Source: Caproicibacterium amylolyticum
Lineage (GTDB): Bacteria; Bacillota; Clostridia; Oscillospirales; Acutalibacteraceae
DNA length: 64,000 bases
Direction of reading: 5' to 3'
NCBI RefSeq assembly: GCF_014467055.1
Contig: NZ_CP060696.1
Span: 1,054,001 to 1,118,000 of the forward strand
Shown here: positions 9,903-30,086 of the stretch, piece by piece
Position numbering within the stretch: position 1 is the stretch's first letter
How the letters are laid out: every line of letters begins with the position of its first letter
Notes under the pieces: model-generated
Told to the model about the DNA's origin: nothing
Seen by the model: the letters and a program-made list of their open reading frames with translations, nothing else
Database searches by the model: none
Program-made: the position numbers and the translations under genes

Positions 9903-11576
9903 ATGGCAGTAGATTATGCAAGAGCAAAAAAGCAACTAATACACGACATCAAATATCATATGTACGATATGGATGCATCTGAATTGGCATTGAAGCGAGA
10001 AGCGTTGCGGTCAATTTATCACAAAGAAAACAATATGCCTGCGGCACTGTTGGAGAATGATGGATTGCGGAAAACACTGAACATCATTTTGAGCAATCCA
10101 AAGGGACTCAAGCCGGTGCAGATGCAGAACTACACAGATAAATACTGGTAGACGTTTCTTTTTGCGGCACCGTATGATTTCCACTCCTACTTGATTTACA
10201 TGGAGAGGAACAGAGAGCCTGATAAGAAGTTCTACCCGCCGCGTGAGCGTGTGCTGCGGCCAATCGTGCAAGACCTGCAAGACTTGGAAGATGGAAAGTT
10301 AAAGCGGTTTGGACTGTCTCTGCCCCCGGGCAGTGGATAGTCCACACTAGGAATATTTTATATGGCGTGGGTGATTGGAAAACACCCTGATATGCCTTGT
10401 TTGGCATCCGCTTATGCTGACAAGCTGACAAATTCTTTCTACACTGGCGTGCTGCAGCTTATCAAGGATGATGAATACACCTACAAAGACATCTTTCCGG
10501 GTTCAAAGCTGGTAAACACAAACTCAAAAGAGGAAACGCTCGACTTACGGAATCAGCACCGGTTTAAAACGTTGACCTGCCGTTCCATTGATGGCGGTTT
10601 GACCGGCGCCACACGTTGTGAAAGCCTGCTGTATGCGGATGATATGGTTTCCGGTATTGAGGAAGCAATGAATCGAGACCGCATGGACACGCTATGGTAT
10701 AAGTTCACAAATGACCTTATGAGCCGTATGAAAATGGGCTGTAAGATGCTGATTATCGGTACTCGCTGGTCTGTGTATGACCCATTAGGGCGGCTTGAAG
10801 CAAGGTATGAGGGTGACGGATACAGCAAGTTTGTGCGCATTCCTGCACTGAACGAGGATGGAAGTTCAAATTTTGACTATGATTATGATGTTGGATTCTC
10901 ACGGGAATATTTTGAAGATATTCGCGACAACATGGACGATATTTCATGGGGTGCAATCTATCAGCAAAGGCCAATAGAGCGCGAGGGTGTGCTTTACCAT
11001 GAGGACGATTTCCACTATTTTGATGGCAAGTTGCCGCCGGATGCAAAACCTGATTCCATTGTAGCGGTCTGCGACTCTAAAAATCAGGGTAAAGACTATG
11101 TGGCAGCAATTTGTGGCTATGTTTATGGCGATACGGTGTACATACGCGATTTGGTATTCAATAATGGTTTGCCAGATGTCACAAAGCCTATGGTTGCAAA
11201 ACTATGCGTCAGGAATAAAGTATCACAGCTTGATGTTGAGGTGAACAACGGCGGCGGATACTATGCCGAAAGCGTTAGTGACATGATTTCACAAGGCAAC
11301 GGCAATACATCCGTCAGGACGTTCTTTTCATCTACCAATAAAATCACACGTATTGTTACAGAGTCGGACTACATCATAAAGCACTTCGTTTTCCTTCAAC
11401 CGTCAAAGCAGAGCAGAGAATATAAGGCCTTCATGCGCAACGTGTGCAGTTTTACAACGAACGGGAAAGCGAAGCACGATGATGCGCCGGACGCACTGTC
11501 TATGCTGAGTAACCTTGTAAAGAACTTGACTGCCTACAGCATACGGATGATAGACAGAAGTCAGATTCCTTTGTGA
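9903..11576 (+). CDS. terL: terminase large subunit, two in-frame TAG codons
   Basis: 557 codons, with TAG at codon 83 (10149-10151) and codon 146 (10338-10340). Read through both, the protein is a normal-length packaging ATPase/nuclease. The N-terminal part has FAAPYDFHSYLIYMERNREP. The Walker A is LPPGSG-UAG-ST, in which the amber codon takes the place of the conserved lysine. The Walker B-like segment LLYADDMV lies near residue 245, the RNase H-like nuclease starts at CDSKNQGKDYVAAIC, and HDDAPDALS is near the end. Without UAG decoding only 82 residues are made. This placement suggests lysine insertion and makes DNA packaging depend on the suppressor tRNA. Confidence 0.9.
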
Positions 11577-11591
11577 GTTCATAATTCTGTA

Positions 11592-11632
11592 ACAGGTTTT
11601 CAGTAGCGAAATTTATTCCTGTACGTTAAAAT
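11592..11632 (+). promoter_or_regulatory. phage-specific promoter, copy B, upstream of tRNAs and virion genes
   Basis: CAGGTTTTCAGTAGCGAAAT, then 14 bases, then TAAAAT (11627-11632), in the same geometry as copies A and C. Two hairpins follow (GTAAGAAATTTCTTAC palindrome near 11640, and GCGGCGC/GCGCCGC at about 11662-11690). It would transcribe the tRNA array, including the amber suppressor, together with the portal and capsid genes. Confidence 0.7.
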
Positions 11633-11698
11633 GTAAGTAGAGTAAGAAATTTCTTACAGGGCGGCGCTCTTTACACTCCTTTCTGCGCCGCTTAACAT

Positions 11699-11773
11699 GC
11701 CTAAATAGCATTAACCGGACAAAGCGCCGCACACAATGATGTGCACACGCGGGTTCGACTCCCGCTTTAGGCA
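11699..11773 (+). tRNA. tRNA-like gene, anticodon not assignable
   Basis: GCCTAAA pairs perfectly with TTTAGGC, and the T arm GCGGG-TTCGACT-CCCGC is perfect; total length is 75. The anticodon arm is odd: the best stem GCACA/TGTGC leaves a six-base loop (CAATGA) without the usual T33, and the D stem is weak. No CCA is encoded directly after A73. It is either a decaying tRNA or a tRNA-like element. Confidence 0.45.
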
Positions 11774-11867
11774 ACTATACAACCTGTGCAGCTGCATGAA
11801 GCACAGCTACCGGATGCAGCCGGTAAAGAAAAGCGGTACTGTATTTTGCAACAGTTCCGCTAAATAT

Positions 11868-11954
11868 GGCACTCGACAAATAGCTGGGAAAGTCGGCTGA
11901 CCGTAAATCAGTTTCCGTAAGGATTGCAAGGTTCGATTCCTTGGGGTGCCACCA
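11868..11954 (+). tRNA. tRNA-Tyr(GTA)
   Basis: Acceptor GGCACTC/GGGTGCC, T arm CAAGG-TTCGATT-CCTTG and encoded ACCA. The anticodon loop CCGTAAA gives GTA with C instead of T at position 33, which is unusual. A long variable arm fits class II tRNA-Tyr. It belongs to the phage tRNA array. Confidence 0.7.
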
Positions 11955-12066
11955 GAATAGCGGTATATCTTTGCGAAGATATAAGCGGATGAAAGCCCCG
12001 CTGCGCATTTTGCATATATGCGTTCAGGATTATGCGATGAGTCGCCTCTACCAATATGCTTAATAT

Positions 12067-12154
12067 GGAAGATTGTCTGAGTGGCTTAAAGAGCCTGCTT
12101 TGAAAGCAGGTAAGCAGAAATGCAGCAGGGGTTCGAATCCTCTATCTTCCACCA
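12067..12154 (+). tRNA. tRNA-Ser(TGA)
   Basis: Acceptor GGAAGAT/ATCTTCC, anticodon stem CCTGC/GCAGG with loop TTTGAAA (TGA), a long variable arm typical of serine tRNA, T loop TTCGAAT and encoded ACCA. Confidence 0.9.
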
Positions 12155-12445
12155 ATTCCTAAAGCCAACAGCGTACAGGGATTCAGATAACAGGATTGAA
12201 GCAATGCAAGCTTTTAAAAGGAATCCATCCTCCTCTATGGAGGAAGAATCCCAGTCGGCAAGGCGCTAGTCCATGCGAACTGGGCGGTTTAGCAAACTTT
12301 TCCGTATTAAGTTTGACTATGTGGGTAATACGCCCTCCGTGAAAGTCGGACGTAAGGCAGAACCGAAAAGCTGCCAGCGCTTATCCGGCGCTATACAAGA
12401 GGGTATATGCACCGATGGGCTGCAATGAAAAATGCCCATCAAAAT
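12155..12445 (+). other. 291-base non-coding spacer inside the tRNA array, structured
   Basis: No reading frame of note. Several hairpins are visible: CCCAG/CTGGG (about 12251-12290), GGCGC-type stems near 12380-12395, and GATGGGC/GCCCATC just before the suppressor tRNA (12415-12440). It may be a processing spacer, a lost tRNA or an unknown structured RNA. I could not match it to a known RNA family by eye. Confidence 0.4.
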
Positions 12446-12521
12446 GGGGAATTAACTTAGTTGGAAGAGCACCGGACTCTAAATCCGGGCGACCTCGGTT
12501 CGAGTCCGAGATTCCCCACCA
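12446..12521 (+). tRNA. amber suppressor tRNA, anticodon CTA
   Basis: Acceptor GGGGAAT/ATTCCCC (7 bp), anticodon stem CCGGA/TCCGG with loop CTCTAAA giving anticodon CTA, T arm CTCGG-TTCGAGT-CCGAG, discriminator A and encoded CCA. The D loop AGTTGGAAG and short variable loop are normal; one A-C mismatch ends the D stem. The loop differs from a lysine CTCTTAA loop (anticodon CTT) by one base. C32, A38, G1-C72 and A73 fit tRNA-Lys better than tRNA-Gln (usually U1-A72, T32, T38). It should decode the 13 in-frame UAG codons of the virion genes. Confidence 0.93.
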
Positions 12522-12542
12522 CATTGAAAACAAGGTGACTGT

Positions 12543-12752
12543 TTGAAAGCGTATAAAATCGGAGATAGACCAGTTCCAGATTGGGTAAAATCTCTTGTTG
12601 ACGCAGGAAACGTTATCTTCAAGACAGACGGATGGTGTGAAGCTGGCGACAAATTCACCAGATACAGCGCTCCAGCCGGATTTTACATAGTCCTTGATGA
12701 TGATGGGAAATGTAAGACTTGCCCACCAGATAGACTTAAAGGAAGTGAATAA
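12543..12752 (+). CDS. small hypothetical phage protein
   Basis: 69 residues starting TTTGAAAGCG with ATG or TTG context at 12543 and AAGGTGACTG upstream. It reads as a small beta-rich domain (VIFKTDGWCEAGDKF, GFYIVLDDDGKCKTC). It sits between the suppressor tRNA and the portal gene and ends three bases before the portal ATG. The function is unknown. Confidence 0.5.
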   Translation: MKAYKIGDRPVPDWVKSLVDAGNVIFKTDGWCEAGDKFTRYSAPAGFYIVLDDDGKCKTCPPDRLKGSE

Positions 12753-12755
12753 TAA

Positions 12756-14357
12756 ATGATTGAAGATATTTTATCAACTGCGTGGCTCGGAGAAGGTCAC
12801 ACATTTTTAGGAAGATAGGAAATCTGCACTTCAAGAGAAGTCAGCGAAGAAACTATACCCGAAATTGTCAGCGGCGCTATGATACAGTTTGCAAATAATC
12901 AGCAGGAAATCGAATACCTGTATAATTACTACAAAGGCAGTCAGCCAATCGTTTACCGTGAAAAAAAGGTTAGACCGGAAATCAATAACCGCATTGTAAT
13001 TAACAACGCTCTGGCTATTGTGCGTAACGCAAACGGCTATTTCCTCGGCGAGCCAATCAAGTACACTTCAAAAGGCGGTAGCGATAAAGAGCGCAGCGAT
13101 ATTGACTCTCTAAATGAGTATATGGACAGCGAAGATAAAGCCGCAAACGACATGGATGTTGGCGAAAGTGCTTCCGTTTGTGGCGTTGGATATCGTCTTG
13201 TTGCGGTGGATGAAAAATGCGATGAGGATGAAGCACCATTTGAGATTCCGACACTTGATGCACGTTCAACATTCGTCATTTATTCCACTGACTCTGTGAA
13301 AAAGCCTGTGCTAGGTGTTACATTCTCTGACATTCTGGATGATTACGGCAACGCAACCGGCAGAGTGTACACGGTGTATGACAACACATACCAATATCAG
13401 TATGAAGTCGCTGGAGTACAGACAACTATTACTGCAAAGGACCTTGTAAACGGATATCCAAAAGCACATTTGCTTGGTGCTGTTCCGATTGTGGAGTACA
13501 AAAACAATCAGTGCCGTATGGGCGACTTTGAATCCGTGCTGACAATTCTTGACGCGTTGAACAAGCTGCACAGTGACCGTGTAAACAGTGTTGAACAGCT
13601 TGTAAACAGCCTGCTTGTGTTTGTGAACTGCCACTTGAAAACGGCAAAAGAGAATGGTGGGACTTCTGATTTTGAAAAGATGAAGCAAGGCATGGCTCTT
13701 GAAATGACTTCCGACCAGCAGAATCCAGCAGACGTGAAGTATGTAAATTCCGGTGTCAATCAGAACGAAGCTGAAACGCTTGCACAGACTTTGATTGACT
13801 ATGTGTACGCCATTACCGGAATTCCTGACCGTAAGGCAAAGGGCGGCGGCACTGGCGACACAGGGGATGCAGTTTATCTGCGTGACGGATACCAGAGCCT
13901 TGAAGTTGTAGCACGGTGTAAACAGAGAAATTTCAAGAAGTCAGAAAAGCAAATGCTCCGTATGGTTTGCAAGATTTTAAAGCGATTCAGCAACATTGAC
14001 ATCAAGCCGATGGATGTTGAGGTAAACTTTGTCCGTAACCGCACAAACAATATGCTTAACAAGTCGCAGACACTTTCAACTTTGATGGCGACCAAAGTTC
14101 TCACTCCTACAGATGCGATTGAGCTTTCCAACTTTACAGAAATGCCTAACGAAATGGCAAAGCGTGGAGAAGAATATTGGAAACAGAAAGCAGATGAAGC
14201 GGCAGCTATGCTTGCGCCTACTGACAACACAGTTCCTACAGGAAATGAGGAATCTAATGCTAAGGGAAGTCAAGATGGAAAGCAATCTGCGAATCCCGCA
14301 GACGGCACCGGTTCTAAAGGAAGTACGGTGCAGAAAGTGCAACAAAAAGCTGGGTGA
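12756..14357 (+). CDS. SPP1-type portal protein, one in-frame TAG
   Basis: 533 codons from ATG 12756, which is preceded by GGAAGTG. TAG at codon 21 (12816-12818) interrupts the N-terminus (FLGR-UAG-EICTS). After it follows NNRIVINNALAIVRNANGYF and GYRLVAV of the phage_prot_Gp6/SPP1 portal family, then the stem/crown region and a disordered Gln/Gly/Lys-rich tail. The dodecameric portal is the DNA gateway of the head. A shorter reading from ATG 12879 would drop 41 residues. The C-terminal end overlaps a small zinc-finger gene in another frame. Confidence 0.9.
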
Positions 14358-14424
14358 ATTCAACGGATACTATGAAATCAAATGCCCACGTTGTGGAAAT
14401 ATGCAGAGTGGGTACATAAAATAA
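14275..14424 (+). CDS. Com-like zinc-finger protein overlapping the portal gene
   Basis: 49 residues from ATG 14275 (GGGAAG six bases earlier). VRCRKCNKKLGEFNGYYEIKC followed by PRCGNM carries two CxxC pairs, as in the Mu Com family of small translational activators. Whether this copy controls translation of a nearby gene is unknown. The first half overlaps the portal gene in a different frame. Confidence 0.7.
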   Translation: MESNLRIPQTAPVLKEVRCRKCNKKLGEFNGYYEIKCPRCGNMQSGYIK

Positions 14425-14436
14425 GAGTTCCTAAGA

Positions 14437-14482
14437 GAACCGAAACTTTCAGCCAATAGGCTGTCTGCTTCGGTTCTTTTTT
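14437..14482 (+). terminator. terminator-like hairpin inside the head operon
   Basis: GAACCGAA pairs with TTCGGTTC around a 24-base loop, followed by TTTTTT. It lies between the Com-like gene and the next gene, so transcription to the capsid genes must read through it or start again. Confidence 0.65.
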
Positions 14483-14499
14483 ATCAATGGAGGTAAACA

Positions 14500-14724
14500 A
14501 TGAAAGAAATTTATATTCCGACTTCGGTTCTTACGGTGCTGCTTCTAATTCTGAAGATGCTTGCGGTACCGGCTATTCCGTGGGTGGTAGTATTCTTGCC
14601 CCTGATTGTTGTAACTGCATTCTTTGCCGTGGCATCTGTGGCAATGACAATTATAATTGCTCGTTATCGTGACAGATTTGAAAAGTTTTTAAAAGACATC
14701 GGCCTTACAAAAGCAGATGAATGA
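14500..14724 (+). CDS. small membrane protein
   Basis: 74 residues, ATG 14500 behind ATGGAGGTAAACA. Two hydrophobic segments (VLTVLLLILKMLAVPAI and VVFLPLIVVTAFFAVASVA) precede a basic amphipathic end (ARYRDRFEKFLKDIG). It shares ATGA with the next small gene. The function is unknown. Confidence 0.5.
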   Translation: MKEIYIPTSVLTVLLLILKMLAVPAIPWVVVFLPLIVVTAFFAVASVAMTIIIARYRDRFEKFLKDIGLTKADE

Positions 14725-14875: not shown

Positions 14876-14887
14876 AATGCCGCTTTT
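14866..14887 (+). terminator. short hairpin with T tract
   Basis: GCGGC-TGAAAT-GCCGC-TTTT directly at the end of the small gene. It could end transcription or help process the following tRNA-like element. Confidence 0.5.
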
Positions 14888-14889
14888 AT

Positions 14890-14941: not shown

Positions 14942-15008
14942 CGGCAAGTCTAATAGCCTACTGCCTGCAAAACGACCGCCACAGCGTGCGGTAAAGCTAT
15001 TCACTTAT

Positions 15009-15107: not shown

Positions 15108-15914
15108 GTGATTAGAATTCACATTGTTAAAGCAGACCTTCCAAGAAGCCTAAGTTCGGTTGAACTGAATGTAATAGGTGACCTACATATTGGTGATAAA
15201 GCCTGTGACAGGAAGCTGATTCAGCAACGCATAGACCATATTCATGACGCCGAAAATGCATATTGCATTCTTAATGGCGACCTAATGAACACGGCAACTA
15301 AAACAAGCGTATCAGATTGCTATGCTGAAAGGCTCTCCCCAATGCAAGAGATTGAAGAATGCTGCAACTTGCTTTTTCCGATAAAAGACAAGATTGTTTC
15401 TATGCAGGACGGCAATCACGAACGGAGAGTTTACCGGCAGGACGGAGTTGACATATCAAGACTGATTGCAAGAGAACTCGGCATAGAAGATAGGTATTGT
15501 GCAGAGGGAAACTTCATATTCCTTAGATTTGGAAGCACGTCTGACGGCCACAAGGAAACCAATGGAAGCGGCAAAAGCAGAATGGTATGCTACACCATTT
15601 ATGCAACGCACGGAAGCGGCGGTGGCCGCAAAGAGGGTTCAAAGATAAATCGCCTTGCTGATATGGAAAGCATTGTGGACGCAGACGTTTACATTCATAG
15701 CCATACGCACTTGCCTATGGTGTTAAAAGAATCTTTCTTTAGGGCAGACATTCGCAATAGCACCGTGTCATCGGTAGACAAGCTATTTGTAAACACGTCT
15801 GCTTGCCTTGATTATGGCGGATATGGGCAGACGGGTGAATTTAAACCATCTTCAAAAGATACACCGATAATTTACCTAGACGGCACACGGAAGAAATTTT
15901 CCGCTTGCTTATAA
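15108..15914 (+). CDS. metallophosphoesterase in the head operon
   Basis: 268 residues. All calcineurin-type motifs are visible: GDLHIGD near residue 23, NGDLMN near 56, DGNHERR near 100, THGSGGG near 165 and HSHTHLP near 198. The enzyme could be a phosphodiesterase or DNA nuclease of the Mre11/SbcD type. The first GTG at 15108 sits only a few bases from AAAGGAA, so the true start may be a nearby ATT. An unusual gene between portal and scaffold; it carries no TAG. The following 15915-16005 holds no convincing gene. Confidence 0.75.
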   Translation: MIRIHIVKADLPRSLSSVELNVIGDLHIGDKACDRKLIQQRIDHIHDAENAYCILNGDLMNTATKTSVSDCYAERLSPMQEIEECCNLLFPIKDKIVSMQDGNHERRVYRQDGVDISRLIARELGIEDRYCAEGNFIFLRFGSTSDGHKETNGSGKSRMVCYTIYATHGSGGGRKEGSKINRLADMESIVDADVYIHSHTHLPMVLKESFFRADIRNSTVSSVDKLFVNTSACLDYGGYGQTGEFKPSSKDTPIIYLDGTRKKFSACL

Positions 15915-17018: not shown

Positions 17019-18098
17019 ATGGCTGAACTTTAGGACATTTTTACGGCAAATGCAGTTGCAAACGATTGGGCAACTGCGTATTCCAATGAAATCCCGTATC
17101 TTGGCAGTGCTTTCTTCGCACCGCGAAAGAAAACCGGGTTAACTGTGTCTTGGCTGAAAGGCACAAAGGGACTTCCGGTTGCAATCAATCTGTCTAGCTT
17201 TGATGCAAAGCCGACATTCCGCGACCGTGCAGGTGTGAGCCGTTCTGAAACGGAACTGGCATTCTTCCGTGAGTCTATGATTGTCAAAGAAAAGGACATT
17301 CAGGATTTGATGGAAGTGCAGAATCGTGACGCAAATGACCCATTTGTGCAGGACGTTTTGAACCGCATCTTTGATGATGCTGGTACTTTGCGTGATGGCG
17401 CTATGGTAGTGCCTGAAATTATGGCATTCAGCCTGCTTGCGCCAGTTGACGGAAGTCCTATCATCAATTTGACCGGAAAAGATGGTGCAAGTTACACCAT
17501 GAACTATGATGCTAACGGCACATGGAAAGCTAAGCACTACACTGCTCTAACCGGAACAAACTTGTGGAGCGATACGGCTAATTCTAAGCCGCTGTCTGAC
17601 ATTCGTACCATCAAGCGCAACGCTCTGAAAGAGAATGGGACAGTGCTGTCCACTGCCATTATGTCACAGGCAACGTTTGATAATCTGCTAGAGAATGCAC
17701 AGATTAAGTCCGCAATTCTGGCACAGAACGCTACTGCAAACATCTTCATGGATGATAATCTGCTTGCACAGTTCTTACGCATCAAGTGTGGCATTGATAT
17801 TATTGTCTACGATAAGATGTACAAGGGCATTGATGGCACTGCACATCCGTTTATGCCGGATGGCTATGTTACATTCCTGCCCGCTGGCGGCTCCGTTGGC
17901 ACTATGTGGTATGGCATGACACCGGAGGAACGCTCTGCACGTCAGGCTGGCAACCAGCTTGCTATCTTCAACACAGGTATCACCATCACCGTAAGTACCA
18001 CAAAAGAAGCGCCGTACCAGACCATTACCACCGCTTCCGAAATCCTTGCGCCGTCTTATGAGCGTATGGACGAAGTCTATGTTGCAAAGGTGGCTTGA
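17019..18098 (+). CDS. major capsid protein, in-frame TAG at codon 5
   Basis: 359 codons. AGGAGGAATAAAAT precedes ATG 17019; the frame reads MAEL-UAG-DIFTANAVANDW. The later part (GLTVSWLKGTKGLPVAI, TFRDRAGVSRSETELAFF, IPYLGSAFF upstream) is the HK97-fold capsid family of Clostridia siphophages. Without amber decoding only a tetrapeptide is made; a restart at GTG 17145 would remove 42 residues, including the N-arm. The neighbour order scaffold, decoration, capsid is normal. Ends in TGA. Confidence 0.92.
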
Positions 18099-18255: not shown

Positions 18256-18576
18256 ATGGCTACTACACAGCTTGATTAGCTGAAAGTATGGCTTGATATT
18301 CCAGTAATCGACACTTCTTAGGATGAAAAGCTGAACCTTATGCTTGACCGGGCAGAGTCGAAAATTAAAGAGCGCAGACGGTCACCGCCTGATGCTCCAC
18401 TGGAAAGCCAATATAACGAACTGCAAATTCAGATTGCAATTTTTCTTTATAACAAGCAAGGAGCAGAGGGGGAAACGGCTCACAATGAGAACGGAGTCAA
18501 CCGCTCTTATGAAAATGCTGATATTCCTGATTCCCTGCTGAAAGAAATCATTCCTATGGCGGTGATGGTTTCATGA
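18256..18576 (+). CDS. head-tail connector (gp6-like), two in-frame TAG codons
   Basis: 106 codons from ATG 18256; TAG at codon 8 (18277-18279) and codon 22 (18319-18321). Reading through gives TTQLD-UAG-LKVWLDIP and IDTS-UAG-DEKLNLMLDRAE, the usual start of phage_connect_1/gp6 connector proteins. The rest is helical with LQIQIAIFLYNK. The intact frame on both sides of both TAGs shows these are not decay. Overlaps the next gene by four bases. Confidence 0.88.
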
Positions 18577-18977
18577 GAAGCCTGAACAAAGATAAAAAGT
18601 CAATCTGGTTTGCAAAGAAATTGCCACCTGTTCCCGAAAAAGACGAAAATGGGCTCGAAACAGGGAACATGATTTCCTGCTATGACGAACCTGCCGAATT
18701 CCATGTGAACGTGCAGCCAATAACCGATACGGCAGACATTCAAGAGTACGGTGCTGACGTTTCCAAAATGCAGAAATGTGTGTTCACGCCGTTTGATGTT
18801 GAAGGATATTCTCCAGAGGAATTTGAAGCGGCATGGTATGGAGTCACGCCAAACGGAAACTTGCGGGACGATGATGCAGAGCACCAGATGAACAACAACT
18901 ATACAGTCAAACAGGTAATTTTCACTGGTTGGCAGTATGCTGTGTACATTAAAAAGGTCGCAGGCACAGAAACATGA
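18573..18977 (+). CDS. head-tail joining / head closure protein
   Basis: 134 residues, predicted beta-rich, located between connector and gp10-like genes, as head closure proteins are. It has NVQPITDTADIQEYG and EFEAAWYGVTPNG. No TAG. Assigned mainly by position. Confidence 0.55.
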   Translation: MRSLNKDKKSIWFAKKLPPVPEKDENGLETGNMISCYDEPAEFHVNVQPITDTADIQEYGADVSKMQKCVFTPFDVEGYSPEEFEAAWYGVTPNGNLRDDDAEHQMNNNYTVKQVIFTGWQYAVYIKKVAGTET

Positions 18978-19465
18978 AAATCTCTTTTGATGCACTTTCT
19001 CCATAGTCTGTGGAAGAAGCAAAAAAGCAACTGGAAAGTCTGAATTCCAAGGTTGATTCTACCCTTGCAAGCGTGATTTCGCAGCTTACGCAAGAGGGGT
19101 GCGATTACATGAAATCAGTCGTCAAACGCTCTACGGGGGAACTGTCAGACAGCATTTCCAGCACGTTTGATGAATCAACCTGTACTGGAAGAATTTCGGT
19201 TGGTTCAGACTACGCTATCTTTGTTGAGTATGGAACCGGGATTAAAGGCGCAACCAGTCCACATCCTAATCCTGCTCCCGGATGGGTGTATGATTCAAAC
19301 AGTCATGGCACTGCCGGATGGTGGTACTTTGATGAAAAGGCGCAGAAACTACGTTGGACGCAAGGACAACCTGCTAACGCTTTTGTTTACAAGACGGCAC
19401 AGTATTTGAAACAACGTGCAAAAGAACTAACCGAAAAGGAATTGAGAGTGATTGTGAATGGTTGA
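18974..19465 (+). CDS. HK97 gp10-like neck protein, in-frame TAG at codon 11
   Basis: 163 codons from ATG 18974, overlapping the previous stop. The frame reads ISFDALSP-UAG-SVEEAKKQL, then VEYGTGIKGATSPHPNP and TAGWWYF, the hallmark of HK97 gp10/minor tail completion proteins. The TAG is at 19004-19006. GTG at 19010 right after the amber codon has no ribosome site, so readthrough is the simplest reading. Confidence 0.85.
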
Positions 19466-19876: not shown

Positions 19877-20314
19877 ATGGCTGATGCAAATGTTATTGCA
19901 CTTACTGATATTGGCATTAAACTGATGAAGAAAAATGATGCTGGCTAGTATGAAAAGCTGGTATCCGTTGTTAAGACTCCTGACACCGGTGGCACTCCTA
20001 ACAAGCTGGAAGTTACCACATTGGACAGTGAATACAAGCAGTACGTTTCCGACCGTCCAGACACGCCTACATACGATTTCGAGTACAACCACACCGAAGC
20101 AAACTATACGGCTGTAAGCGGATATGTAAGTTTGAAAACTCCAAAGGATTTTCTCATTGTCTATCAGGATGGCAGTGGCGAACACTTTGTCGGAACCGGT
20201 GCAACATGGATTAGCGGTTATTCTGCTGGGCAGGCAGGCAAGTGCTCTCTGGCAGTCAACGTTTCCAGTCACGACCATGTAGCAGACACAAGCACAATGA
20301 TTGCTACTGTTTAA
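19877..20314 (+). CDS. major tail protein, in-frame TAG at codon 24
   Basis: 145 codons; ACGGAGGTATAAAAT precedes ATG 19877. The frame reads IKLMKKNDAG-UAG-YEKLVSV (TAG 19946-19948) and continues as a beta-rich tube protein with YQDGSGEHFVGTGATWISG. Located between tail terminator and chaperone genes, as in siphophages. Without UAG decoding only 23 residues are made. Confidence 0.85.
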
Positions 20315-20356: not shown

Positions 20357-20692
20357 ATGAATTCTTTTGATGTAAATGTGGGTGAAAAGACCTACAAACT
20401 ATTCTATGACCGCGCTTCTGTTCGTAAGTTTGAGAGCATCGGCGGCAATGTTTCCGACCTGTAGGACAAAATCTACACTTCTGCCGACAAACTGTTTTAC
20501 TGCGGGCTTGGTAAGTTCCACCCAAATATCAGCTATTCCGAAGCTGCTGAAATTTCCGATAAGGCAATCGAAGAATTCGGAGTGGATGAAATTTACAGTG
20601 CTCTGGTAGAGCCTTTCATGGAGGTTTTTACCGAGGGCGGGAAGTCTGCAAAGAGCAAGACATTTCTCGTGGCTCCGAAGAAAACAGCGTAA
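20357..20692 (+). CDS. tail assembly chaperone, in-frame TAG at codon 36
   Basis: 111 codons; ACGGAGGTATAACAAT precedes ATG 20357. TAG at 20462-20464 in NVSDL-UAG-DKIYTSADKLF. The family (gpG-like; FYDRASVRKFESIGG) helps wrap the tape measure. The -1 frame is open over the last part and runs into the next gene, which lacks a good start, so a gpG-gpGT type frameshift is possible. Confidence 0.8.
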
Positions 20693-20742: not shown

Positions 20743-21114
20743 TTGTTCCCATTGGCCGTAATAGCAGGGTGTAGCTATGACGAGTTTTGGAACGCTGAAC
20801 CAGAATTGTTTTGGCTTTATGTGAATGCCTACAACATAAAGCATGAAGCTGAAATTGAGTTATGGCAGCAGCGGGCTGATACGGCTGCATGGTTGCAAGG
20901 CTACTATGTAATGCAGGCTGTTGGCGCTTGTTTAACTGACAGCGTACAGTATCCGACAAAGCCAGAATCAATGCTTGCTCCCAAGAGCAAGCAAGAGTCT
21001 GTAAAAGAGCAGCAACAGTCAATGGAAACATACTTCCGTAAGCGGTCAGAGGAGATTGATAAAATGCTTAACGGCACTGCTCCCAAAGTCATTACGGGAG
21101 AACGAAGATGTTAA
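20743..21114 (+). CDS. second tail assembly chaperone segment (gpGT-like), start uncertain
   Basis: 123 residues from TTG 20743. The same frame is open upstream through EPQKQYKTATEQFECELFPLA into the previous gene, but no ATG or GTG with a ribosome site is seen. Such a layout suggests synthesis by -1 frameshift from the upstream chaperone. The second part is helical with QQRADTAAWLQGYYVMQA and a Gln/Lys-rich tail. Confidence 0.6.
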   Translation: MFPLAVIAGCSYDEFWNAEPELFWLYVNAYNIKHEAEIELWQQRADTAAWLQGYYVMQAVGACLTDSVQYPTKPESMLAPKSKQESVKEQQQSMETYFRKRSEEIDKMLNGTAPKVITGERRC

Positions 21115-21178: not shown

Positions 21179-24100
21179 ATGGGAGAAGATAACAGCCTTG
21201 ACATTGAAATATAGGCTTCTGCCACAAAAGCAAATAGCGCATTAGACAAACTGATTGCTAAGATTGAGTCTTTCCAATCATCATTAACTAAATCAATTCC
21301 TACGCTGAAATCTTTTACGGCAGAAATGGACAAAATTGCATCATCTTCAAAAGCATTTGCTTCTCTTAAAAAGTTCTATGATACAGAAAAAGAGGGGGCA
21401 GAAGTTACAAACAAAAATGTGCAGGCCACCAAAAAAGCAGAATCAAACATGGCTATGTATCAGGCGCGCCTTGACCGTGCCAACGTGTCTATGCAGCGTT
21501 CACAGATTCAGGCTGAAAAGTTGTCTGCTGCTCTTGAAAAGACGGCGCAGGCTAAAAAATTTATGGCGGATTCTGACAATTCCATTACTGATTTAGTGGC
21601 AAAAGCCGCAGACAGATATGTCAATGGTGGCACTGATAAAATGTCAACCGAAGCTGCACAGTCTGCGTTGCAGCGTCAAGCAAGTGAATCTGTGAGTGCA
21701 AACCATTCTATGCAACCGAACGTTTCTGATTTGAGAAAGGCTATGAGCCAGCCTACGCAAGCGCAAGTCAACACGAGCCATTCTACAAAAGCCATTGAGG
21801 AAGTGACGCAGTATATTGAACGTCTGAAATCCTCCATGAATGGCATTTCTGGTGATTCTGCTGCACAATTTGCAAATCTTGAAGCACAGTTGCGGTCACT
21901 TGCCGCACAGATTGACAATGCCGCCACTGCGTACCAAAATCTGAAAGTAAAGGCACAAGAAGCAGTCGCTTCAAAGGGCGTTGGCAGTGAAGAATATTTA
22001 AAACTGGAAAGCAGAGTATTGAAAGCCAGTAATTCCATGAGCAGCCTAACCGCAAAGCAGCAGAAAGTTGTGGAGAAGATGGAGCAGATTGCTTCCGCTA
22101 CAAATGAAGCTGGCTCTGCTATGGATAAGTTTGGTAATAAATCAGAAAGAGCGGGGAACAAAGCAAGCAGGGGAAGTAACAGCACGCTAACTGTTGCAAA
22201 GCACATGATGACTGGAATGGTTTTCTTTCAGGCGTTTACTCTTTTAACAGAGGGAGTAACTACTGGCTTGCAGCACATGGCACTTGCAAATAGCCAAGCA
22301 AATGCTACAATGTCAGCGCTTGCTACAAACAGCTTGTACTTAAAAGATAGCATAGCGGCGGCACTTATGCCCGCAATTCAAGCTTCAATTCCGTTAATAA
22401 ACCTTTTGTCTGAATGCCTTGCAAATGTTTTCAATACGATTGGAATGCTTACTGCACGAATTTTCGGCCATGCTAAAACGGTTACTATTGCTAAAAAGTC
22501 TTATGTCGATTATGCTAAAACTATTAGTGAGTCTGGAAATAATGCAGCAGAAGTCGCTGCAAAAGAAGCAGATAAGGCGGCAAAGGTTGCAGCACAGAAC
22601 GACAAATCAGCTGCGGCGGCAGACAAGCACAACAAAAAGTTGAAAGAACTCAAACGTACTATCATGGGGTTTGATGAAATAAATGCTTTGCAGGACAAAA
22701 ACAAAGGCGAAGTGCAGACCCCTACCATTAAAACTCCTGACTATAGCAGCATTAAAGACAACGGTATGCCAGATCCATCAACTGAATTTGAAACAGTGAA
22801 AATTCCCGGTTGGATTGACAAAATTGGTGGAATGACAGACCAAGTTGAAAAATTCATCAAAGGCTGGTGGGATGGACTCACTGACAAGCAGAAGTGGGCT
22901 GCAAAAAAAGGTGCTACTGCCGGATTTGTAATAGGCGGCATCATTGGCGGCTTGCTGTTTGGGAAAAAAGGAATTTTGCTTGGTGCTGGTATTGGTGCCG
23001 GAGCTGGAGCATTCATTGGAGCATGGTGGGAAAAACTTACCACTCCTGAGAAATGGAGAGTTGGAATTGGCGCTAGCGTTGGTGGCATCATTGGTGGAAT
23101 CATTGGCGCTATAATTTTCAAGAACCCAAAGGCATTTTTGGCTGGAGCGTTGATTGGAAGTGGAGTAGGCGCATTAATTGCTGACTGGTGGGGAAAACTC
23201 ACAGACTCTCAAAAGTGGAGTACAGGCATTGGAGCCGGTGCTGGCTCAATAATTGGGGGAATAGTTGGTGGCATCTTGACTGACGGGAATCCAATAGGAA
23301 TAGCTGTTGGTGCTTTGCTTTTAGGCACAATTGGAGGAATTATTGGTGATTGGTGGAGCGGACTAACTGACTCTCAAAAATGGCAGTATGGCATTGGTGC
23401 AGGTGCAGGTGCTACAGTTGGAGGAATCATTGGAGGAATACTCACAGGTGGAAACCCAATTGGAATTGCAGTGGGGGCTTTACTCGGCGGGACCGCTGGA
23501 GCAATTATAAGTGATTTGTGGGGAAAACTTACCGATTCTCAAAGATGGGGAGTTGGAATTGGCGCGACCGCTGGAACCGTAATAGGTGGTATCATTGGCA
23601 CAATTATTTGTCCCGGAATTGGAACTGCGCTAGGAGCACTGCTTGGTGGCGCTGGTGGAATTGCCGCTGGAAAGTTTTGGACAGATATGACGCAAAAAGA
23701 AAAATGGTCTGCCGGAATTGGCGCTGGTGCTGGCGCAATTATAGGTGGAATCATCGGAACGCTTATCTGCCCCGGAATTGGAACAGTGCTTGGCGGACTT
23801 TTAGGAAGCGCCGGTGGAACAGTAATCGGAAAGTTTTGGGCAAACATGACAACAAACCAGAAGTGGAAAGTTGGGGCTGGTGCAACTGCCGGTACTGTTA
23901 TAGGAACAATTATAGGCACACTCATATGCCCCGGAATCGGGACTAAACTTGGCGCACTCCTTGGCGGTGCCGGAGGAACCGCTATAGCAACGTTCTGGTC
24001 TACTATGACAAAGAAGCAGCAGTGGAACGCTGGAATAGGTGCAACGGCTGGCACTGTTATTGGTGGAATCATTGGAACAATCATATGCCCCGGAATTGGG

Positions 24101-26866
24101 ACTGTATTGGGCGCGATGTTGGGCAATACAGCCGGTTCGATTGTCGGAAAATTTTGGGATGACTTAATCAATAATTTTAAAAACTATGGTGCGCAGTGGA
24201 AAGCGGCACTTTCTGGAGATTGGAAAAAGCTAAATTGGTTACAAAAGCATGATACTACAGACCCAGATAAGTACAATGCTAGAGAAGAAAATGGGTTTAG
24301 TTCCATATTCAACAAAAGCGGTACAAGTAGCCATCCGGGAGGCCCCGCTATCGTCAACGACGCACCGGGTTCCACATATCGTGAATTGATTCAGTATCCA
24401 AATGGAAAGAAGTTTATTCCGGATGGAAGAAATGTACTAATTCCCGACCTGCCCGTTGGAACTAAAATCTTTCCTGCCGATGTCACTCAAAGAATGATTC
24501 CACATTATGCAAAGGGAACGGTTGATGGAAATAGTGCATTGCAGGCTACACAACAATCTATTACCATAGCAAATGTATTCAATGTTGATGGTAAGACAGA
24601 TTCCAGCATTTTGGGAGAATCCGGTGCAAAGGTTAAGCAGATTACAGACAATCTTCGTACTTCTGCCGACACCCGCAAGAAAATTGTTTCAGACGAAACA
24701 GACTATACCGCAAAAAAGTATCAGGAAATCTCTGCAAGCCTGAACAATTCTGTGCCTACGCTTCTGAAAGGAATCAGCGCAAATGTTTCTGATACATCTT
24801 CCGCTATCCAGACAGACACAAACACAAAGTGGAATGGGATTAGCACATTCCTTGATGGAAAGTTCAGTGGGATTTCCAAGAGTGCAAACACAAATTTCTC
24901 TGCTGCAAAGTCTTTTGAACAGAGCAACTTTGCGTCTGCTGAACGTGATGTGAGTTCCAAAACTTCCAGAATGTACAGCAATGCTTCCGGTAAATTCAAA
25001 GCAATTTCATCTGATGCAAGTACTTATTTCAGTAAAGTGAAACAGTCGGCACAGATTTACATGAGCGATTCTGACAACATTGTGAATCAGCATTCCAAAG
25101 CCATCAACAACAATGTTGCTGATAAAATTGGCGGCGCAATTAACGGTGTAGTGGCAGGTATCAACTCTGTGCTGTCTGCGGTTGGTTCTAAGGCAACTGT
25201 AAAGCCAATCAGCATCAAGCGCTATGCCTATGGTTCAGGGCATCATCCCGGCGGTGCGGCACTTGTTAACGACCAGTCAGGCTCTACTTATCGTGAATTG
25301 GTTCAACTTCCAAGCGGCCATGCTTTCATTCCGCAGGGACGCAATGTGCTGATTCCTGATTTGCCTGCCGGTTCGTCTGTACTGCCTGCAAAACAGACAA
25401 AGCAGATGTTCCCACACTATGCGAATGGTGTAGGCGACTTCTTTGGCACTTCTAAGGCTGTTCTAGACACTTTTTCTACAAACATGTGGAATTACCTAGA
25501 CAAACCTGAAATGCTCTTACACGCCGCTGTAGACAAAAGCACAGCCATGCAATCAATTAACTTCCCATGGAATGAGATGGAAAGGAGCACAGTACAGTTC
25601 TTGACAAGTCATTCTGTTGACTTCATCAAAAAGCAACTTGCAGAGTTTACGGCACCTGGGAATGGCACTGTAGAAGCATTTTTGAAGATTGCGGAAGCAG
25701 AACTGGGCTATCTGGAAAAGGGTTCAAACAGCAGTCTGGACGATAAAGCAGCCAATGCCGGTCATGCAGATTTTACAAAGTTTGGGCGTGACTTCGGAAT
25801 GAACGGTGCCGCTTGGTGCGATATGTTCGTGTCTTGGTGTTTGAAACGTGCGGGAGTGGATGAATATCTATCTGCTTCCTGCGAGGATTCCATGAGCCAT
25901 TTCAAGTCAGCTAACCGCTGGACTAACAATCCTGCACGTGGCGATTTGATTTTCTATGATTGGGACAAGAACGGTACTGCCGACCATATCGGCATCGTTG
26001 AGAGCATTGCAAGTGGCCTTGTAAATACGATTGAGGGAAACACAAGCGGAAGCAATGGTGCAGAGGGTGTATTCAGGAAGCGCCGCAATGCAAATTCTGG
26101 AAACATCCTCGGCTATGGCATTCCACATTTCAAGAGCGCAATGGAAGCTGCAATAAGTGCAGTCGCAAATGTAGGCTCTGGAGTTGAGCAGTGGAGAAGC
26201 CTTGCATCTAAGGCGCTTATGATGACCGGCCATTACTCTACGCACAATGTTGATTTACTACTTTCGCAGATGCGCACAGAGTCAGACGGGCAGGTCGACC
26301 CGCCAGACCTGCATGACGTAAATTATTACGCCGGGCATCCGTCTAAAGGCTTGATGCAATTAATCCCTGAAACATTTTCGACTTACGCTTTGCCCGGATA
26401 CAACACGAACATTCTTGACCCGTTATCAAACATCATCGCGTCCATCCGTTACACATGGGCGCGTTATGGTTCTCCTGACGGCGTATGGGGGCAAGGACAC
26501 GGATACGCAAAAGGTATCGGAAACATCGATTGGGGCGGTTGGAACGCAAATGGAGGCATCTATGACGCACCTACGCTGATAGGCATAGGCGAAAAAGGAA
26601 AAGAAGCCGCTTTACCAATGCGTAAAGAGTCCTATGCAGAGATTGCACAGGGCATTGCTGAACAGCAGACAAATGGCAATTCAGCAAATTCATCCAATCA
26701 GAATGAACTTGTAAATCAGGTTGGCGCAATCCTTGCAATTTTGCAAAGTAACAGCGGAAAACCAATTCAACTTCATGTTACAGCAGACCTTGACGGCAAG
26801 AGCATTTACGATTCAACTCAAAATTACAAAGCAATCGATAGTAGACGTTACGTTCCAACTCATTAA
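21179..26866 (+). CDS. tape measure protein with CHAP and transglycosylase domains; in-frame TAG at codon 12
   Basis: 1895 codons from ATG 21179 (GATGGAGTG upstream). TAG 21212-21214 in SLDIEI-UAG-ASATKANSALDKL. Order: helical coiled coil (12-500); eight hydrophobic Gly-zipper repeats (564-992); two copies of a cassette with VND..GSTYRELxQ and GRNVLIPDLP; a CHAP/NlpC-like peptidase (1497-1645; AAWCDMFVSWC and DHIGIVE); and a lytic transglycosylase (1677-1780; RTESDG and KGLMQLIPETF). It sets tail length and can cut peptidoglycan at entry. One TAG in nearly 1900 codons, and that at codon 12, argues for a purposeful position. Confidence 0.92.
22868..24154 (+). repeat. eight tandem ~54-residue repeats in the tape measure gene
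   Basis: Each repeat begins with W-x-x-L/M-T-x-x-x-K-W, continues GIGAGAG/GIGATAG, IGGIIG and often CPGIGTxLGALLG, then ends GKFW or DWW. They are in frame and similar at DNA level. The repeats are strongly hydrophobic and glycine-rich, as in a Gly-zipper or membrane-inserting array. Confidence 0.9.
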
Positions 26867-26872
26867 CGATTA

Positions 26873-26904
26873 GGCTCACTTGATTTTTCAAGTGGGTCTT
26901 TTCT
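26873..26904 (+). terminator. terminator after the tape measure gene
   Basis: CTCACTTGA-TTT-TTCAAGTGGG followed by TCTTTTCTTTT, a few bases after the stop. The next stretch (26905-27033) is AT-rich without a gene. Confidence 0.7.
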
Positions 26905-27033
26905 TTTGCCCTTTTTCCCTTGACCGGAAATATTTTTTTCGCAAAGCGTTTTTACTTTCTGCGTGGAGATTTTTTTAAAAACTCCGCGCTTTATATATAT
27001 TATAATTATATTATATTTAAATAAAGGATTAGA

Positions 27034-27122
27034 GGTAGTCAAGAAACTAGACTACCCTAGTCAAATTATTTGACTACCCCTAGTCAAGAAATTAGACCAC
27101 CTAGTCAAGAAAATTGACTACC
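27034..27122. repeat. four tandem palindromic 22-base units TAGTCAA-n-TTGACTA
   Basis: Four units follow each other (27034-27056, 27057-27078, 27079-27101, 27102-27122). Each has TAGTCAA, a short A/T-rich centre and an inverted arm (TAGACTA, TTGACTA, TAGACCA or TTGACTA) and ends in CC. They end about 30 bases before promoter C. Repeat geometry suggests an array of binding sites; no protein is assigned. Confidence 0.75.
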
Positions 27123-27149
27123 AAATGGAAGCAGCTATTAACATTGAGT

Positions 27150-27192
27150 TCACAGGTTTTGAGTGGCGAAATCAGTTCAAGCATGCTAGAAT
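27150..27192 (+). promoter_or_regulatory. phage-specific promoter, copy C, for the tail-tip operon
   Basis: CACAGGTTTTGAGTGGCGAAAT, 14 bases, TAGAAT (27187-27192). Same geometry as copies A and B. A terminator-like hairpin (27237-27276) lies between its start point and the first gene. Confidence 0.7.
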
Positions 27193-27236
27193 AAAAATAT
27201 AATTAAAAAATTTTTCGTTTTCATAGAACGCCATAG

Positions 27237-27276
27237 GAGCGTCATATTCAGAAATGAGTGTGATGCTCTTTTTTTA
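27237..27276 (+). terminator. leader hairpin with T tract before the tail-tip genes
   Basis: GAGCGTCATA pairs with TGTGATGCTC, followed by eight T. Located about 45 bases after the start expected from promoter C and 23 before the gene, so it could attenuate the operon or stop readthrough. Confidence 0.6.
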
Positions 27277-27298
27277 TTGTAAAGGACGGTGAAGCTGA

Positions 27299-27676
27299 AT
27301 GGCACAATCAACATTGATGGTAAACGGAAATACCATTGAAACCCCGCAATCTATGGAATGGGCATTACAGGACATATCAGATTCGGAAGCAGGGCGCGAC
27401 CAGTAGGGGCAGATGCACAAAGATAGAGTTGCACAGTAGGTGAAGCTAACGTGCACATGGCCGCCATTGACGGAAGCAAGGGCATCTGTGCTGTTGCAAC
27501 ACGTTCAGCCAGAAACATTTCTGCTGACATATCCAGACATAAGGCTTGGAGGATACCGCACTGCAACGTTTTACGTAGGTGACAGAAGCGCACCAGTAAG
27601 TTACATGGTAAAGCAAAATGGACGGTTTGACCAGTCTATGATTTCAAACATAAAATTTGATTTTATCGAAGTGTAA
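27299..27676 (+). CDS. tail-tip associated protein, two in-frame TAG codons
   Basis: 125 codons from ATG 27299; TAG at codon 36 (27404-27406) and 47 (27437-27439). The frame reads EAGRDQ-UAG-GQMHKDRVAQ-UAG-VKLTCTW, as in DUF6711-like proteins that sit between tape measure and tail genes. Related proteins usually have a basic residue after MHKxRxxQ, consistent with lysine at the second TAG. Without decoding only 35 residues are made. Confidence 0.75.
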
Positions 27677-27689
27677 AGGTGGCGATAGA

Positions 27690-30086
27690 TTGAAACCAGT
27701 ATCGGACGATTTTTAGAAATTTGTTCTGCTGAATGGCAGAGAATTCCACTTCAAAGCAGATGTGAAGTTGGCAAACGGAACAGAATTCCCGCTAAAAGAT
27801 GCAGACATCATGCAAGGCAGTGTAACCATTGACAGCGGAGTTTCTTCAAAGTCTGATTATACAGTCGGCTCCGCGATTACAGACTTATGTACAATCATGC
27901 TGAATAACTTTGACGGAAAGTTTACGCAGTACGATTTCTGCAAAGCAAGCATTACCGTGTACATTGGAATGGTTGTCAAGCGCGATTATACCGGCGACAC
28001 GGTAGAATGGGTGAAGCAAGGTGTATACAACGTATATGACTACAAGGGTCGCAATACAATAACGGTTTCTGCATATGGAAATCTCTCTAAGTCAGACAGC
28101 AAAGTTGACATGGATGTTACTTATCCGGTCACATTGGGAAACCTTGCACAGCAGGTTTGTGACAAGTGCGGAATTTCACTGAAAACGAAAACTTTTCAGA
28201 ATAGTGATTACCAGATTTTCAGAGACCCGCAGTATTCATCTTCCACTTATCATGAAGTGATTGCGGATATTGCACAGCTATCAGGATGCTATGCACAATG
28301 CAATCCAGACGGAGAACTTGAATTCAAGTGGTTCGACTATTCAACCACGCCGTACAATATTAGCAGTTACCAGAAGTATGAGCCAGCAAAAGATGATATT
28401 ACCGTGACCGGCGTTAAGATTGACAGCAAAAATGTTGATGCAAAATCCGGCACAGACGGTTATGTAATTACGCTAAAAGACTCCGACAACAAGCTACTGC
28501 AAGCTGCTATCTATGAGCAAGTAATTTGTGACGAATGGGCAGTGAACATTAATTCTGCTATTACCAGCAAGGATACGGATGTACCTGCGCGACTGGCGGG
28601 AATCAAGTCACAATGCATTGAGTTGCAAAACTATTGCAGTCGGTACGGCGGCACATACAACCCCACAGACGCGGAACGTAAAACCTTTGTGGACAGCGCA
28701 AAACAGTATGATTCAGATGTGAAGTCCTGCATTGCGTATCTTAAAGACAGCGCAACAACTGTTGCAACTGCCGCATTTGAGCCAAAGCAGACTATGCCGG
28801 ACGGGTTGACGAAATATATCAGCAGTTATTATGAAACCGCTCAAACCAGTATGGCGCAGGAAGAAGCGGACTTAACCGCTGACTTAGGATATATCACGAA
28901 AAAGACGGACAAGGAAAGCGGCACAAACGCATGGACGTGCATAAATGCGCTGGTAGATGTGTTGTATAACGACATTGCGCGGATACAGGCTGATAATTGT
29001 TTTGCGGGAATTGATGCGGCAAAGATTGAATACAAGGGCAAGCTGCTGACGTCTGCTGATTTTTCGGATTTACCCGGCAGACTGGCTACAGTCCGGCAGC
29101 ACCGCGACGTGGCAAATGTGCAGCAGGTTGTGGACAACATAGCTCCACACCTGATAGGCAACACCATTACACCGTATTCGGCAACGATTTATAGCAACCC
29201 TGCACTGGAAGCGGGGGACATTGTGGACATTGAGGGACACAAGAGTGTCATTACAAATCTCACATACAAACTCAATTCTGCTGAAACAATCAGTGCAGAA
29301 GCAAAGTCACAGGCAGAAAATTCCTCCGATTTTTATTCTGAATCCGAAAAGCTGTGGGATGAATTACAATCGCTGAATACGAAGTCTGAAGAACTGCGTA
29401 TCAAAATCCAGAAGTTGGCAGATGGGCTGGAAAGCACTGTTTCGCGTGGCGACGAAATGAGCGACATTAAGCAACTGTACAATTCGATTGATTTGAGCGT
29501 GTCTGATTCTGAAAAGAAAACCAGTGCAGAAATCAAGATGACCGCCGACTCTATCACGTCATCCGTCAATGACAAGGTGGGCGGTTTGCAGTCGCAGATT
29601 ACACAGCAGGCAGACGAAATCAGCAGCAAGGTGTCGCGAACAGAAGTTAATTCGGTTGTTAGCACAGCAATTACGCAGAGTTCAGACGCTATTGTGTACG
29701 CATTCAACCACAAGGACGGTTCAAGCCAATCCGTACAGTTTACAGGTGACGGATTTGACTTTTACTACAATGGCTCTAAGCTGGGGCATTTGGGCGTGAA
29801 TAGTAACCCTGAAACAGGTACGTATGATATGTGTTTCCAGCCCACAAGCGGACATGGCACATATTTTAGTAACAGTGGCAGCTATGCACAGGTAGTTATT
29901 GGCAAAGTTAAAGCCGATGAATTCCACGCAAACGGATTGATTGCCACGAGTGGCACAGTAGATTGTAGTGGGCTTACGATTAACGGTATAAATGGCTGGA
30001 ATGGCTCAATCGGACCACTGACAAAATCTGATGGCGGGACGGTTACAATAAATTTCAGCAGTGGAATTATGACGGGGTGGAATTAA
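27690..30086 (+). CDS. tail-associated baseplate protein (endopeptidase-tail type), in-frame TAG at codon 9
   Basis: 798 codons from TTG 27690, seven bases after AGGTGG. TAG 27714-27716 in KPVSDDF-UAG-KFVLLNG. The N-terminal ~370 residues look like the gp27/Tal-like hub (GNLAQQVCDKCGISL, GCYAQCNPDGELEF, AGDIVDIEGHKSVIT near 500), followed by coiled coil and a beta-rich C-terminus. ATG 27762, 24 codons on, is an alternative start that would avoid the TAG but has no ribosome site. Confidence 0.75.

Follow-up and report, generated by a model that had tools for sequence, protein, structure and literature searches.

In-frame TAG codons near the starts of late genes and a lysine-like amber suppressor tRNA in a temperate phage of Caproicibacterium amylolyticum

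The prophage and its TAG-bearing genes

The 64,000-nucleotide stretch of the Caproicibacterium amylolyticum chromosome considered here (NZ_CP060696.1, positions 1,054,001 to 1,118,000; hereafter the window, with coordinates counted from its first base) holds the late genes of an integrated unit of 58.0 kb, ten of which carry in-frame TAG codons and are accompanied by a tRNA gene with a CTA anticodon. The host chromosome is a single contig of 2,996,201 bases, and the unit is bounded by an exact 56-bp attachment (att) repeat, of which one copy (attL, left of the window) belongs to the host tRNA-Gly(CCC) gene at genome position 1031877. A 395-amino-acid integrase (Phage_integrase, E 3.6e-21) adjoins attL, with an HTH_3 regulator further in, followed by a Rha-like antirepressor, a sigma-factor-like protein, an SSB-like protein, a helicase and DnaB proteins, and then by a helix-turn-helix (HTH) gene, terL, a tRNA array, the head and tail genes, an amidase and a holin. 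The att repeats, the integrase and the repressor-like regulators mark the element, as judged from its sequence, as a temperate phage. Its TAG-bearing late genes, suppressor tRNA and right attachment site are given below, with L003 and L011 denoting related contigs.

9903..11576, + strand: terL; TAG at codon 83 (10149) and codon 146 (10338, the Walker A lysine, PPGSG-X-ST); profile match
12446..12521, + strand: putative amber suppressor tRNA, anticodon CTA, lysine-like; found by ARAGORN, 60.7 bits with Rfam; between terL and portal
12756..14357, + strand: portal (SPP1 gp6-like); TAG at codon 21 (12816), also in L003; PHROGs/Pfam match
17019..18098, + strand: major capsid protein (Phage_cap_E); TAG at codon 5 (17031), also in L003 and L011; PHROGs/Pfam match
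18256..18576, + strand: head-tail connector; TAG at codons 8 and 22 (18277, 18319), also in L003 and L011; PHROGs/Pfam match
18974..19465, + strand: HK97 gp10-like neck protein; TAG at codon 11 (19004); PHROGs/Pfam match
19877..20314, + strand: major tail protein; TAG at codon 24 (19946); profile match
20357..20692, + strand: probable tail assembly chaperone, named from its position only; TAG at codon 36 (20462)
21179..26866, + strand: tape measure protein; TAG at codon 12 of 1895 (21212); profile match
27299..27676, + strand: DUF6711 protein, between tape measure and hub; TAG at codons 36 and 47 (27404, 27437)
27657..30086, + strand: tail protein, hub by position; TAG at codon 20 (27714); start uncertain
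35883..35938, + strand: attR, 56 bp that exactly repeat the 3' portion of the host gene for tRNA-Gly(CCC)

All thirteen codons listed in an earlier note on this DNA are indeed TAG, each in an open reading frame (ORF) that is open on both sides of it, and the ten genes contain no in-frame TAA or TGA, as that note had also claimed. By opportunity alone TAG would make up 39% of nonsense changes, and the probability that all thirteen would be TAG is about 5e-6. The gene names proposed earlier are backed by PHROGs or Pfam profiles in eight cases (terL, portal, capsid, connector, gp10-like, major tail, tape measure, and the hub as 'tail protein'), whereas the 'tail-tip' gene matched only families of unknown function (phrog_1194, DUF6711) and the 'tail chaperone' gene had no PHROG or Pfam match. 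The good ribosome site said to precede the first part of each gene is likewise present in eight of the ten, as a Shine-Dalgarno (SD)-like match of at least 4 bases at the chosen start; the gp10-like gene, which overlaps the gene before it, failed this criterion, and the hub start may be either TTG 27657 or TTG 27690.

Scanning the + strand for TAG-containing ORFs of at least 80 codons with an SD-like site returned 15 rows: eight of the ten late genes at their chosen start, the hub gene with a later start, the HTH gene plus its read-through extension, a RusA gene, and four others (-15148, 2289, 2679 and 10873) that were judged to be chance frames. The RusA gene lies left of the window (genome 1047102-1047518, window -6898 to -6482) and has TAG as its codon 28, within the span of the RusA domain, which brings the total to 14 or more TAGs in 11 genes, namely the ten late-block genes and RusA. 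The earlier note has neither this fourteenth TAG nor the start clustering, the lysine identity or the att sites. A possible small gene at 14382-14672 has a TAG at codon 26 that is common to L003, where extra DNA splits the gene; it is of doubtful status and was excluded from all counts. Endolysin profiles match approximately residues 1497-1668 of the tape measure protein, and a lytic domain thus seems to sit inside it.

What UAG encodes

Three contigs are close relatives of the prophage, two of them from IMG/VR, of 72 kb and 48 kb, and a third of 6.6 kb. The 72-kb relative has TAG at all 12 comparable positions of the ten late genes, the 6.6-kb contig has it at all seven positions that it covers, and the RusA TAG is common to the relative, so that 13 of the 14 TAGs recur overall; the identical TAGs in the IMG/VR contigs make sequencing error an unlikely source of these codons. 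The exception is the Walker A codon of terL, which is AAA in the relative. Directly after this lysine, L003 carries an insertion (8936-9997) that is absent from the window, matches homing-endonuclease profiles and contains an in-frame TAG of its own (9593); it had no intein profile hit, and the description 'intein-like' rests on its position and domain. Pooled over the ten genes, the ratio of nonsynonymous to synonymous polymorphism (pN/pS) is 0.084 before the first TAG and 0.112 after it, the tape measure gene being represented by its first 136 codons (from the 6.6-kb contig) and the second part of terL being left out; taken alone, that second part gives 0.026.

The CTA tRNA had been placed in the same operon by the earlier note, and both ARAGORN and Rfam recover it there. 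Among the 48 distinct tRNA sequences of the genome that were typed by ARAGORN, the nearest to it is tRNA-Lys(CTT), identical at 57 of 76 positions, and this is also the nearest of the same 48 to the suppressor of the relative (64 of 76 positions). The suppressor locus apart, none of these 48 has a CTA anticodon; they include the prophage's own tRNA-Gly, and Rfam gives 61 tRNA-like places (150 of 166 candidates scored). The window and L003 suppressors differ at five base pairs, all of them compensatory and none one-sided, and 20 of 21 cloverleaf pairs are intact in each. Both retain A73 and U35, which are lysine identity elements. Of the Rfam families, only tRNA reaches its gathering score beside the suppressor, in a search that did not include the theta motif itself. 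Two further tRNA-like sequences lie in the array. The one at 11699-11773, between the suppressor and terL, scores 35 bits with Rfam and has an anticodon loop of 6 nt; the other, at about 11868-11955, is Tyr-like (GTA, and by eye a C at position 33) and was not listed by ARAGORN.

Alignment of the TAG genes with unrecoded relatives, one of the checks proposed earlier, favours lysine. The TAG at terL codon 146 occupies the Walker A lysine position, which is lysine in all 17 homologues aligned there. When the 12 alignable columns are combined and only the nearest homologue is used in each, the posterior for lysine is 0.9999, 9.3 nats over glutamine; when all homologues are used it is 0.999, 7.8 nats over glutamine. 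The calculation drew on 20 relatives without TAG at these positions and took its substitution frequencies from the same alignments; one of the relatives (L028) has a TAG elsewhere, several cover terL alone, and L023 and L027 look near-identical in four genes. The nearest homologue has lysine in seven of the 12 columns and glutamine in one, and the expectation from code 15, that TAG would align with glutamine, failed. For calibration, lysine codons of the window face lysine in the nearest homologue at 55%, and glutamine codons face lysine at 11%. Codon 12 of the tape measure gene had no usable homologue and lies outside the test, as does RusA, in which a relative of 43% identity has YTPAKTVNYEKQ opposite YTPA-TAG-TVNYEKQ of the window. 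UAG is thus very probably read as lysine in this prophage, as far as decoding can be judged from these alignments and the tRNA. The broader claim that the prophage reads UAG as sense gains from the TAGs of the relative, from purifying selection on both sides of them, from the covariation in the tRNA and from the lack of another CTA anticodon among the typed tRNAs.

Other explanations of the TAGs fare poorly against this evidence. In-frame stops are over-represented in the phage/transposon category of bacterial genomes, according to the available part of PMC7918605, and the genes might on that ground be those of a decaying prophage with amber nonsense mutations and an incidental tRNA; with 13 of 14 TAGs in a diverged relative, a pN/pS of about 0.1 on either side, covariation in the tRNA, and interruptions that are never TAA or TGA, we consider decay highly improbable, in agreement with the earlier note. 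It is just as hard to credit that the TAGs close short leader peptides and that the downstream pieces are made from internal starts. Start codons do exist after the TAGs, and one at terL codon 154 has a 4-base SD-like match, but in seven of the ten genes the first start after the last TAG has no such match, an internal terL start would lose the Walker A motif, and the RusA domain spans its TAG; moreover, the parts before the TAGs are under purifying selection, and many of them align with homologues. Glutamine is the usual reading of UAG in recoded phages (PMC9523058 and PMC10879173, in the parts available), and ARAGORN labels the CTA tRNA as one for pyrrolysine. Either residue is nonetheless improbable here, glutamine in view of the residue calculation, the Walker A position and the kinship of the suppressor with tRNA-Lys, and pyrrolysine in view of PylS, for which this genome gave no match above the cut-off (best 23 bits against a cut-off of 178; one control genome passed).

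TAG positions, promoter-like motifs and a proposed gate

The TAGs are strongly concentrated at gene starts. Eleven of the 13 fall within the first 50 codons, against 2.28 expected, and none of 200,000 draws of 13 from the 426 lysine slots (AAA, AAG, TAG) of 16 late genes reaches that number; when draws are confined within genes, one of 200,000 is as far forward. With RusA added (440 slots) the figures are 12 of 14 against 2.5 expected, again with none of 200,000 draws. The clustering holds when the tape measure, hub, portal, connector or DUF6711 gene is left out (1, 0, 0, 0 and 0 of 20,000 draws, respectively), and in the tape measure gene itself, with 1895 codons and 139 lysine slots, the single TAG is at the first slot. 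As a control we used one unannotated 50-kb stretch from each of two Lak phage genomes (code 15), with ORFs of at least 100 codons called mechanically (48 and 23); in these, the first 50 codons account for 18.7% and 8.8% of the TAGs (14 of 75 and 14 of 159), near the background of glutamine codons in the same stretches (14.6% and 6.2%). Per 1000 codons there are 2.2 TAGs here, compared with 5.6 and 10.8 in the two Lak stretches. The sequence upstream of the earliest start codon that follows the last TAG amounts to 1590 nt, or about 2.7% of the 58 kb, a rough and low figure obtained with no gene caller.

Three further sites along the element share a motif, RGTTTTNAGTNRCGAAAT followed by TANAAT at a fixed distance (read by eye), and the region before terL has putative regulatory features of its own.

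3267..3304, + strand: third motif copy, differing from the first pattern by one mismatch; between genes of the early/middle region; putative function
9554..9582, + strand: perfect sigma-70 promoter match (12/12, TG before the -10), before the HTH gene; same sequence in L003
9607..9861, + strand: HTH_3 regulator directly before terL; ends in TAG (9859), with a second in-frame TAG at 9868
9869..9900, + strand: terminator-like hairpin with a T run, overlapping the ribosome site of terL; folding energy -16.5 kcal/mol, z -3.5 (-4.3 in L003)
11595..11640, + strand: phage-specific promoter-like motif GGTTTTNAGTNRCGAAAT with downstream TANAAT, directly following terL and preceding the tRNA array and portal; putative function
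27155..27200, + strand: second exact motif copy, before the DUF6711 and hub genes; putative function

These are the three copies found in the prophage from window -20 kb onwards; all are intergenic, on the + strand and also present in the relative, and 400 kb of sampled host DNA gave no match. The phage sigma-like protein is a candidate reader of the motif. An ORF at 3309-3716, right after the third copy, would begin ATG-TAG, and the same bases occur in L003; direct and inverted TAGTCAA/TTGACTA repeats (by eye) lie at 27030-27125, in the gap between the tape measure and DUF6711 genes, beside the second exact copy. A palindrome, AGTTGNCAACT, was not above chance. The sigma-70 scan gave 12 sites against 7.7 in shuffles, two of them perfect; these two 12/12 matches, at 9297-9325 (- strand) and 9554-9582 (+ strand), diverge about 230 bases apart before the HTH gene and terL. 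The hairpin at 9869..9900 was not listed by the terminator scan. The HTH gene ends in TAG in both the window and the relative, at different codons, and if both of its TAGs in the window are read the frame extends as far as a TAA overlapping the ATG of terL.

The TAGs, their presence in the relative, the two-sided selection, the aligned lysines, the tRNA with its covariation, the start clustering and the att sites can all be read from the DNA, and they suggest the following model. TAG would replace a probable lysine codon near the start of most of the 11 genes, and the phage would supply its own lysine-type suppressor. The host encodes release factor 1 (RF1) and 46 of 417 sampled host ORFs (at least 60 amino acids, 20 stretches) end in TAG, so that the host code is standard; in the lysogen, RF1 would stop any leaked messages early, and no portal, capsid, tail or active packaging ATPase would be made. 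On induction, a phage-controlled promoter just after terL would transcribe the tRNA array and the genes downstream, while terL, which sits before that promoter, would have to be transcribed otherwise. Once Lys-tRNA(CUA) was abundant enough to compete with RF1, UAG would be read as lysine and the gated proteins would be full length, which makes the gate a lock with two inputs, message and tRNA. Lysine charging, efficient reading of UAG, silence in the lysogen, promoter function and timing are all presumed in this account. We regard a suppressor-tRNA gate on particle production in this 58-kb temperate phage as probable on the whole; granted that UAG is read as sense, there are good grounds for attributing the start clustering to such a gate. 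The 'amber-gated late programme' of the earlier note thus fits the layout of the TAGs, although the gating itself is something that we infer.

Several observations weigh against the account as a whole. The 72-kb and 48-kb contigs show no difference in the overlapping stretches compared (21,233 and 20,969 bases) and count as a single witness; five of the 12 residue columns have a nearest homologue other than lysine (N, G, Q, S, D); and the two terL TAGs (codons 83 and 146) lie outside the first 50 codons. At up to three mismatches, 6 of 100 shuffles give a motif count at least as high as the 4 of the whole window, which is not rare, so that the case for the motif rests on its close copies, their conservation and their places. 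The TAGs had been described as belonging to virion genes, but RusA has one too, and the phosphodiesterase-like gene at 15108, the scaffold and decoration genes, the gene at 18573, the tail terminator, the gene at 20743, the BppU-like gene, the gene at 31332, the amidase and the holin have none; the lock would therefore be partial and lysis ungated. TAG is also kept in the relative no better than ordinary lysine codons (187 of 215 unchanged), and we have dropped TAG conservation as an argument for gating. Finally, none of 48 early + strand prophage genes (called ORFs of at least 60 amino acids) uses TAG as terminator, against the 46 of 417 ORFs of the host sample; on the minus strand, an ORF of 69 amino acids (8449-8658) does end in TAG. 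The last two of these points, together with the existence of a suppressor tRNA, would fit a plain drift of the code, in which UAG means lysine all through the lytic cycle and the TAGs are rare synonymous codons of no regulatory purpose. Such drift would not, however, readily account for 12 of 14 TAGs lying in the first 50 codons or for a tape measure TAG at the first of 139 slots, and the two Lak stretches show no such clustering; we think it unlikely, if less so than the alternatives discussed above.

The gate can be cast in a stronger form, in which the system is a nonsense-gate circuit in its own right and not a genetic code. In this form selection would keep one or two UAGs at the starts of genes that need to be silent in the lysogen, the phage promoter would make the suppressor together with its targets, and the HTH gene would add a de-attenuation step, in which suppressor-fed ribosomes might read both HTH TAGs, pass through the hairpin and come to a halt at the start of terL. 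We put this forward tentatively, at slightly less than an even chance.

Distribution and relation to known systems

A lysine-like CTA tRNA pattern was found in one of 398 family genomes, C. amylolyticum itself, and in three viral contigs, namely the 72-kb and 48-kb relatives and the unrelated L105; a stricter form of the pattern gave no match. In L105 (96,542 bp, or 96.5 kb) the CTA tRNA with a lysine-like D arm is at 8227-8300, and the 10 kb examined showed no clear recoding. With family and order samples drawn from larger groups, TerL was detected in eight of 300 family genomes (E 1e-20 or better) and eight of 394 order genomes (E 1e-60 or better), and the portal in two of 11 genus genomes, C. 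amylolyticum being included each time. Of the other TerL-positive genomes only G108, a 64% identical relative, has a TAG, a single in-frame codon in its terL (L028, position 767); it stands at a Trp position with no suppressor on the 19-kb contig, and was not counted as the same system. A phage collection gave no near DNA match, its TerL matches in 376 records all being below 60% identity. A Type-P5 twister ribozyme (46 bits) lies upstream of terL in a distant TAG-free relative (L005 6982-7037, - strand).

A recoded temperate phage is not in itself new, for the available part of PMC10607447 repeats the proposal of Borges 2022 that temperate phages use recoding to switch from lysogeny to lysis; the novelty seems to lie in the lysine identity together with the sparse, start-clustered layout. 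A literature search that was thin on subscription papers turned up no phage in which UAG is reported to mean lysine, nor any account of stops clustered at gene starts. In the parts of these sources available, proteomics shows glutamine at TAG (PMC9523058); the isotypes given over 180 suppressor examples comprise Gln, Trp, Ile and Tyr but no Lys, and a coding-density gain of 10% applies to contigs under 100 kb (PMC10879173); tables 15 and 4 are counted (PMC11210395); the suppression of TGA and TAG is discussed for Zeta crAss-like phages (PMC12386605); and lysine appears only for other codons (PMC8629427). If our reading is true, lysine joins the readings of UAG by phages, and since sparse recoding may hide from tools that seek a large coding-density gain, the class may be much wider. 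Whether stop recoding in phages reflects regulation or drift is debated, and the layout described here speaks for regulation; with the prophage in a one-contig chromosome at a defined attachment site, the gate is experimentally approachable.

The code-15 gut phages (crAss-like, Lak, phAss-1) resemble this prophage in having a phage CTA suppressor, a standard-code host and TAGs in structural genes. A recoding model reportedly put forward by Borges in 2022 is said to involve a delay of late proteins in recoded gut phages. Such a delay has been proposed with temperate phages included, a further likeness. Unlike that group, the present element would use lysine rather than glutamine, has one or two TAGs per gene placed at gene starts, and might lose only about 2.7% of its length under code 11 by our rough measure; its amidase and holin are TAG-free, whereas the tendency of the group, which is not strict, is towards TAGs in both structural and lysis genes. 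Laboratory amber mutants of phages and the lysine-inserting amber suppressors of E. coli are also akin to it, in that late genes can be made dependent on a suppressor and a lysine tRNA can turn amber suppressor; here, in contrast, the conditional codons and the suppressor would be combined in one natural prophage. The suppressor tRNAs associated with theta ribozymes likewise lie in phage tRNA arrays and have been linked to the idea of a concentration switch, but their isotypes, in the part of PMC10879173 that is available, are Gln, Trp, Ile and Tyr, and that of the suppressor described here is lysine-like.

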